Origin: Bacilli bacterium
GTDB taxonomy: Bacteria > Bacillota_I > Bacilli_A > RFN20 > CAG-826
DNA length: 33,511 bases
Assembly: GCA_024695405.1 (NCBI GenBank)
Contig: JAILIF010000103.1
Coordinates: 1-33,511, forward strand
Direction: 5' to 3'
Shown in pieces: positions 24,391-25,487 of the stretch. The translations under genes and the position numbers were made by a program. The notes below the pieces were generated by a model. It saw only the letters and a program-made list of their open reading frames with translations, was not told the DNA's origin and made no database searches. Every line of letters begins with the position of its first letter. The first letter of the stretch is position 1.

Positions 24391-24435
24391 AATTGATGTG
24401 AGACTTTTTCCCATTTTTTTTAAAATAAAAAAATA

Positions 24436-24465
24436 TTGTTGAAAAAGCCTTAATTTAAGTATAAT
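24436..24465 (+). promoter_or_regulatory. Sigma-A-type promoter driving the AbiF-associated RNA
   Basis: TTGTTG (24436-24441), 18 nt, TATAAT (24460-24465). An overlapping alternative is TTGAAA with a 15-nt spacer. Predicted start near 24472. Confidence 0.65.
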
Positions 24466-24470
24466 ATATT

Positions 24471-24519
24471 AACAAGTCCAGAGGACGACGGACATATGTT
24501 CTACTCCCTGACTTTTTTT
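24471..24519 (+). ncRNA. Candidate AbiF-associated small structured RNA ending in an intrinsic terminator-like U tract
   Basis: Core 24476-24512 (GTCCAGAGGACGACGGACATATGTTCTACTCCCTGAC) is 20/37 G+C inside AT-rich flanks. Hand fold: GUC/GAC, AG/CU and GGA/UCC outer stem with bulges; inner hairpin GGAC-AUAU-GUUC; then U7 (24513-24519). Preceded by a promoter and directly upstream of the AbiF-like ORF. Confidence 0.7.
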
Positions 24520-24529
24520 ATTAGACAAA

Positions 24530-25453
24530 ATGAAAGAATATAAAACTGTTGAGGAACTTATCAATATTTTGGAAGGTAAAGGCCTTGTTTTTTCGCAAAG
24601 ACAAAGAGCAAAAAGATTACTAATCGAAAACAATTATTATTGTGTAACAGCATATAAGAAACTTTTTTATAAAAATAATGAAAGGGCATTTCTTGATAAT
24701 GTTGATTTCGAAGATTTATTTAATGTTTATTCGTTTGATAAAAGTTTTAAAACAATTATCCTTAAACATTTATTATTCATAGAGCAAAAGATTAAAACTG
24801 CAATTAGTAATAAAATCTCTAAAGAATATGGAATTAAAGAAACAGATTATTTAAAAAAGACAAATTATGATTTAACAAATCGTTATTTGGATGAAAACTT
24901 GCAAAAAATAATTGATCAAAAAAATAAATACGGAAGCAAAAATAGTGCCGTTAGACATTACAAAGAAACTTATGGTTTTGTTCCGTTTTGGGTTCTCAGT
25001 AAGTGCTTAACAATGGGGGCAGTCAGAGATTACTTTACAATTTTAAAACCTTCAGATCAATTTGAAATTATACAAAATTTATTAGAAAAGAAGATTGACA
25101 AAAAACCTGTTAAAAGAGCTAAAGCAATGATTTCTTTATTTGCTGATATAAGGAATATGTGTGCTCATGATGATAAGTTGATAGGTTATGTTCATGAAAG
25201 AATTACTATTGCAGAAACAGATGAATTGGCAAAACTAGGAATAAAAGAAAACAGCAAAGGGAGAAGCGATATTCTTGCACTTCTTATTTCCGTTAAGTAT
25301 TTTGTTAATAGGACAATGTACAATGAATTTATTCAAGACATTACATCAACTATAAAAAAATGCCATAAAAAAATTGCGCGAGTTGTTTCTAAAAAGGAAT
25401 TCTTGTCTTATATTGGACTTCCTGAAAATTACGAAGAACTTAAGAAATATTAA
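24530..25453 (+). CDS. Abi_2/AbiF-family abortive-infection protein, HEPN ribonuclease-like
   Basis: 307 aa. Abi_2-type N-terminus ('KEYKTVEELINILEGKGLVFSQRQRAKRLLIENNYYCVTAYKKLF...'), 'YSFDKSFKTIILKHLLFIEQKIKTAISNKISKEYG', 'VPFWVLSKCLTMGAVRDYF', and 'ADIRNMCAHDDKL' with the HEPN R(N)xxxH motif at 25151-25168. Confidence 0.9.
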   Translation: MKEYKTVEELINILEGKGLVFSQRQRAKRLLIENNYYCVTAYKKLFYKNNERAFLDNVDFEDLFNVYSFDKSFKTIILKHLLFIEQKIKTAISNKISKEYGIKETDYLKKTNYDLTNRYLDENLQKIIDQKNKYGSKNSAVRHYKETYGFVPFWVLSKCLTMGAVRDYFTILKPSDQFEIIQNLLEKKIDKKPVKRAKAMISLFADIRNMCAHDDKLIGYVHERITIAETDELAKLGIKENSKGRSDILALLISVKYFVNRTMYNEFIQDITSTIKKCHKKIARVVSKKEFLSYIGLPENYEELKKY

Positions 25454-25487
25454 AAAACCAGAACCAATTGAATGATTCTGGTTTTTT
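25453..25487. terminator. Bidirectional intrinsic terminator (abiF-like gene / rpsD)
   Basis: AAAAA-CCAGAA-ccaattgaatga-TTCTGG-TTTTTT between convergent ORFs. Confidence 0.88.

Follow-up and report, generated by a model that had tools for sequence, protein, structure and literature searches.

The window, i.e., the whole stretch of 33,511 nucleotides of an uncultivated Bacilli genome analysed here, contains a compact insertion of ~1.05 kb between pncB and rpsD, the neighbourhood of core genes being as the preliminary description of this DNA had reported. The inserted unit combines a gene for an Abi_2 family protein with a short structured RNA encoded directly upstream, and the features are arranged as follows (positions of the window; G016 and G043 are genomes of the same genus):

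24391–25451, no strand assigned, inserted segment from the end of pncB (24390) to the rpsD terminator, with an empty site in G016 and another insert in G043
24436–24465, plus strand, putative promoter of the RNA with a weak -35-like element TTGTTGAAA (24436–24444) and -10 element TATAAT (24460–24465)
24474–24519, plus strand, structured RNA of about 46–49 nt with U7 end, candidate antitoxin and terminator according to its fold and conservation
24530–25453, plus strand, gene for an Abi_2 / AbiD-AbiF-type HEPN ribonuclease of 307 aa, assigned by Pfam, PADLOC AbiD and 8vz6 matches
25151–25168, plus strand, HEPN catalytic motif RNMCAH (R208–H213), aligned with RNSCCH of PbAbiF (R210/H215)
25452–25487, no strand assigned, inverted repeat of the rpsD intrinsic terminator, conserved in G043 and usable in reverse by abi

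The pncB–rpsD interval is a variable site between core genes. In G016 the site is empty and the gap between pncB and rpsD comprises 68 nt; neither of the two other genomes of the genus searched (G016 and G043) yielded the abi gene, and the insertion, considered together with the empty congener site, demonstrates the mobility of the abi–RNA unit. In G043 (L119/L051) the same interval carries a different insert with ORFs of unknown function and one lipoprotein-like signal. Since the inverted repeat at 25452–25487 is kept beside rpsD in this abi-less genome, it is the terminator of rpsD and lies outside the module proper; thus the bidirectional terminator initially ascribed to the module is real as an inverted repeat but has to be reassigned to the neighbouring gene.

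The ORF at 24530–25453 (+) codes for 307 aa, and its product is an Abi_2 family protein with a HEPN Rx4H motif, as initially proposed: the Pfam model Abi_2 (PF07751, curated cut-off 25.6 bits) matches residues 30–218 with 117 bits and E 1.6e-33, and RNMCAH occupies residues 208–213. NCBIfam search with this protein returned no match, and the PADLOC model AbiD (E 1.7e-47, 160 bits) spans residues 1–306, a likeness to lactococcal AbiD/AbiD1/AbiF. These phage-resistance genes were first found in lactococci, AbiF being located on plasmid pNP40. The closest solved relative is PDB 8vz6 (phmmer E 2.4e-12), with the chain titled Abi family protein and corresponding in the literature to PbAbiF with its ncRNA. 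The profile built from 21 relatives matches 8vz6 over the full length (E 4.5e-42) with the HEPN motif in register, and positions R, N, C, and H of this motif are invariant in the alignment of 21 rows; the scan for Rx4H in the window protein detected one motif and no second. Residues R202/H207 of AbiFCd, equivalent to R208/H213 of the window protein, are required for toxicity, and the double mutant R210A+H215A of PbAbiF is inactive (PMC12373285). The AlphaFold2 model of the Abi_2 protein generated from a two-row alignment had pLDDT 39 and was discarded. No clear Shine–Dalgarno sequence precedes the abi gene, whose ATG is placed 11 nt past the upstream U-run.

The RNA encoded between pncB and the abi ORF (24474–24519), 5′-AAGUCCAGAGGACGACGGACAUAUGUUCUACUCCCUGACUUUUUUU, runs from AAGUCC to CUGACUUUUUUU, with U7 at 24513–24519, and the ~45-nt structured RNA with U7 noticed at the outset is in place. 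The predicted fold includes an outer stem AAGUC/GACUU, a bulged middle part, and an apical hairpin GGAC-AUAU-GUUC (24490–24501). Its MFE of -11.1 kcal/mol (z -1.6) is not significant, 13 of 200 shuffles folding equally well, and this RNA is considered more than a chance product because of conservation rather than folding energy. Thus, the 46-nt block 24476–24521 is identical in 42 of 46 positions upstream of the homologue L003 (UBA2450; the same locus as L031/G066), which belongs to another genus of the family and has an abi protein 62% identical to that of the window, and the 4 differences are confined to the predicted apical loop, all of whose bases are exchanged (AUAU to UGCG), bases otherwise predicted as unpaired or bulged being likewise identical. 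The genomic setting and the flanks of the two loci differ, RNA-to-ATG spacing being 11 nt in the window versus about 50 nt in L003, and ViennaRNA predicts the inner stem as GGAC/GUUC in the former and AGGAC/GUUCU in the latter. The pattern GAGGACGACGG-N3-14-CTACTCCC is present in 2 of 273 genomes of the order, each time upstream of these abi genes. Ten RNA-pattern matches in viral contigs, having neither U-run nor abi gene, were rejected as chance or coding matches, and protein scans of viral contigs revealed no relative. The direct-repeat search of 24391–24540 found none; the RNA is present in single copy with no array at the locus. The locus links one conserved RNA of this kind to a gene for an Abi_2 protein with the HEPN motif. 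As for the putative promoter at 24436–24465, it is plausible only: of the promoter proposed earlier the -10 TATAAT is present, while -35 candidates are poor (TTGAAA at 15-nt spacing or TTGTTG at 18) and the region contains about as many promoter-like sites as its shuffles do (8 observed versus 7.6).

In the tree of 77 Abi_2 proteins, obtained by quick search, the window protein is grouped with L003, L052, L081, L082, and L084 (SH-aLRT 100), and a hairpin RNA with U-run is located upstream of the abi gene in all six members of this clade, doubled in L052, L081, and L084 and single in the window. A single alignment of all RNA units of the clade did not bring the stems into register, and changes were counted within copy pairs instead. 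Both sides of the stem are changed in 3 of 7 pairs between copies of L081 and in 2 of 9 between copies of L052, with none broken; comparison of L084 with L082 gave 1 of 8 pairs, also with none broken, which is weak, as 169 of 500 shuffles of three sequences did as well. Since the pairs were picked by eye from predicted stems, these counts are supporting rather than independent. Conservation of the RNA beside homologues takes the form of loop-only changes relative to L003 and some paired stem changes in sister loci. Near codon 18 the reading frame of the homologue L030 (66% identical) is shifted, and no RNA could be recognised at this locus; an assembly error may account for the shift, which was given no weight. 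In L092 (G885) the Abi_2 frame is apparently shifted near the N-terminus, and both upstream RNA copies look intact.

A check of the upstream region against Rfam abiF models was proposed in the preliminary description, but the covariance search with RF03085 gave no match at E<=10 in the region or in the whole own genome, whereas positive controls scored 37.6 bits (phiC2 RNA) and 44.7 bits (L043). Hence the window RNA is of a divergent type, and the module has AbiF-system architecture with an RNA outside the described Rfam family. Low-scoring matches to MicC and SNORA in the Rfam search of the window and the region were dismissed as chance. RF03085-type RNAs were observed in L040, L042, L043, and phiC2 and, by eye, in L037, the score being over the gathering one in L043 (2419–2455, minus strand) and under it in L040 and L042. 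These last three loci come from the window's own bacterial family, where the classical RF03085-type RNA accompanies other Abi_2 genes; this family thus has both RNA types. One more Abi_2-linked RNA, GGUCAG...CUGGCC, with the pattern UUAGGUCAG(G/U)AAGC...CUGGCCAUUUUU, was noticed in L074, L075, L078, and Streptococcus phage Javan119 (L122, 530–600), i.e., in uncultivated Bacilli and a Streptococcus phage; the abiF RNA scan found no match in L074 and L075 (E<=10) or in L122 (E<=1).

The strong Abi_2/HEPN match and the RNA conserved beside homologues leave the candidate RNA-guarded AbiF-like module standing, and we consider it probable that this is an AbiF/AbiD-type (Abi_2) toxin–antitoxin and abortive-infection module with the short upstream RNA as antitoxin. 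In such a system the promoter would drive synthesis of the ~46-nt hairpin RNA ending mostly at its own U7, and toxin mRNA would arise from occasional read-through past U7; with most RNA terminated and read-through being rare, the RNA would be in excess. The RNA would bind the HEPN protein, which probably forms a dimer carrying one RNA on each subunit, and would block the composite RNase site formed by R208/H213 of each subunit. A phage stopping or diverting transcription would cause the RNA to be lost first, and the HEPN site set free would cut cellular RNA and arrest growth. Dimer formation, RNA binding, RNase activity, neutralisation, and phage trigger are all borrowed from studied relatives, and it is by this analogy that we infer antitoxin function and phage defence for the window module.

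Several observations count against the RNA-antitoxin model: the exact RNA is shared by one close homologue only (L003), RF03085 is not matched and the RNA is single in the window, predicted folds of the window and L003 RNAs differ inside the outer stem, and an RNA-less Abi_2 clade exists. If the RNA were a mere transcription attenuator, i.e., a leader terminator hairpin holding abi mRNA low without protein binding, the U7 end 11 nt upstream of the abi start codon would be readily explained, as would the U-run hairpins of unrelated sequence preceding many Abi_2 genes, and abiFCd transcription is indeed also lowered by RCd22 (PMC12373285). However, what a terminator requires is complementarity rather than a given sequence, yet bases predicted as unpaired or bulged are the same in L003, and a pair of RNA copies one after the other, as in L052, L081, and L084, exceeds the need of attenuation. 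Conserved bases outside the predicted stems, as judged from one close homologue, argue against a pure attenuator, which appears rather unlikely; most likely, by analogy with AbiFCd/RCd22 and PbAbiF, the RNA has two effects, neutralisation of the HEPN dimer and a reduction of its expression through termination.

Much less probable is domestication of the protein as a cellular HEPN RNase with no part in toxicity or defence. The RNA-less and nearly fixed clade of family f17, a family of the same class, does present Abi_2 as a stable chromosomal gene, and the window copy also resides among core genes, but it belongs to a different, patchy clade, is absent from the two congeners searched, with an empty site in G016, and the RNA is kept by its five intact clade mates. 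The evolutionary line from AbiF to Cas13e proposed in PMC12737573 brings in the idea of the RNA as guide or activator of a complex that would recognise its target RNA through base pairing in the manner of Cas13e-type systems. This is scarcely credible, since the only RNA is short and has no obvious free guide segment, variation is confined to four loop bases, the locus lacks a repeat array, and the protein has a single RxxxxH motif.

Systems of this kind have already been published (AbiFCd/RCd22; PbAbiF), and the novelty lies in the host lineage and in the divergent single-unit RNA. AbiFCd of C. difficile (prophage phi027 / phage phiC2) is toxic alone and neutralised in cis and in trans by RCd22, the RNA co-purifying with it (PMC12373285). 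The window module resembles it in having an Abi_2 HEPN protein with Rx4H and a directly upstream structured RNA with its own terminator and read-through into the toxin gene, but the window protein is 26% identical to the phiC2 copy, and RCd22 contains two RF03085 motifs in about 100 nt, whereas the window has one RNA of about 46 nt that RF03085 does not match. PbAbiF–AbiFr (PDB 8vz6; Zilberzwige-Tal et al., Cell 2025), an RNA-neutralised toxin for which PMC12737573, citing Zilberzwige-Tal et al. 2025, gives a proposed Cas13 origin, was compared at the protein level and is distant in sequence. RNA antitoxin logic and the terminator between RNA and toxin are shared with type III toxin–antitoxin systems (ToxIN, TenpIN, and CptIN), though their toxins are ToxN-like rather than HEPN Abi_2 and their antitoxins are tandem repeats, in contrast to the single copy of the window and the two copies of its clade mates L052, L081, and L084. 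Cas13 of type VI CRISPR shares the HEPN RNase motif and proposed common ancestry, but has two such motifs and a CRISPR array, while the window has one motif, no array at the locus, and no evident guide. Both the abiF-associated RNA and the Cas13 ancestry mentioned in the preliminary description agree with the literature (PMC12373285; PMC12737573, citing Zilberzwige-Tal et al. 2025). It is conceivable, albeit doubtful, that RNA of the window clade constitutes a separate Abi_2-guarding class unrelated by sequence to RF03085, in which one ~46-nt hairpin acts as antitoxin and terminator, and that, in the course of Abi_2 evolution, RNA classes were repeatedly exchanged or invented anew, furnishing raw material of Cas13 direct repeats.

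AbiF-type RNA-guarded toxins are hereby extended to uncultivated Bacilli with an RNA missed by Rfam, and since the public RNA library misses it, surveys relying on RF03085 undercount such systems. Being a single RNA of about 46 nt, it is a compact candidate for finding the guarding part of AbiF RNA, one stage of the route by which RNA antitoxins are proposed to have become Cas13 crRNAs.

The window's own genome (G000 C35:9246–9917, L002) contains a second, very divergent Abi_2 with the motif RNIIHH and no obvious upstream RNA. In family f17, Abi_2 homologues, mostly 30–37% identical to the window protein, are present in 224 of 243 genomes, a count including rarer RNA-bearing copies. The 39 sampled rows (L053–L068, L083, L085–L091, and L093–L107) form one clade (SH-aLRT 99), where no hairpin RNA was found at the gene start of any of the 39 sampled proteins and yet the motif RN(L/V)CAH is kept, implying that not every Abi_2 protein requires an RNA partner. 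Directly downstream, 31 of 36 rows of this clade with enough sequence have a gene for a membrane-anchored HtrA-like trypsin–PDZ protease; the clade gives the impression of an AbiF relative that was domesticated and shares an operon with HtrA, and this RNA-less Abi_2–HtrA gene pair may merit separate study.
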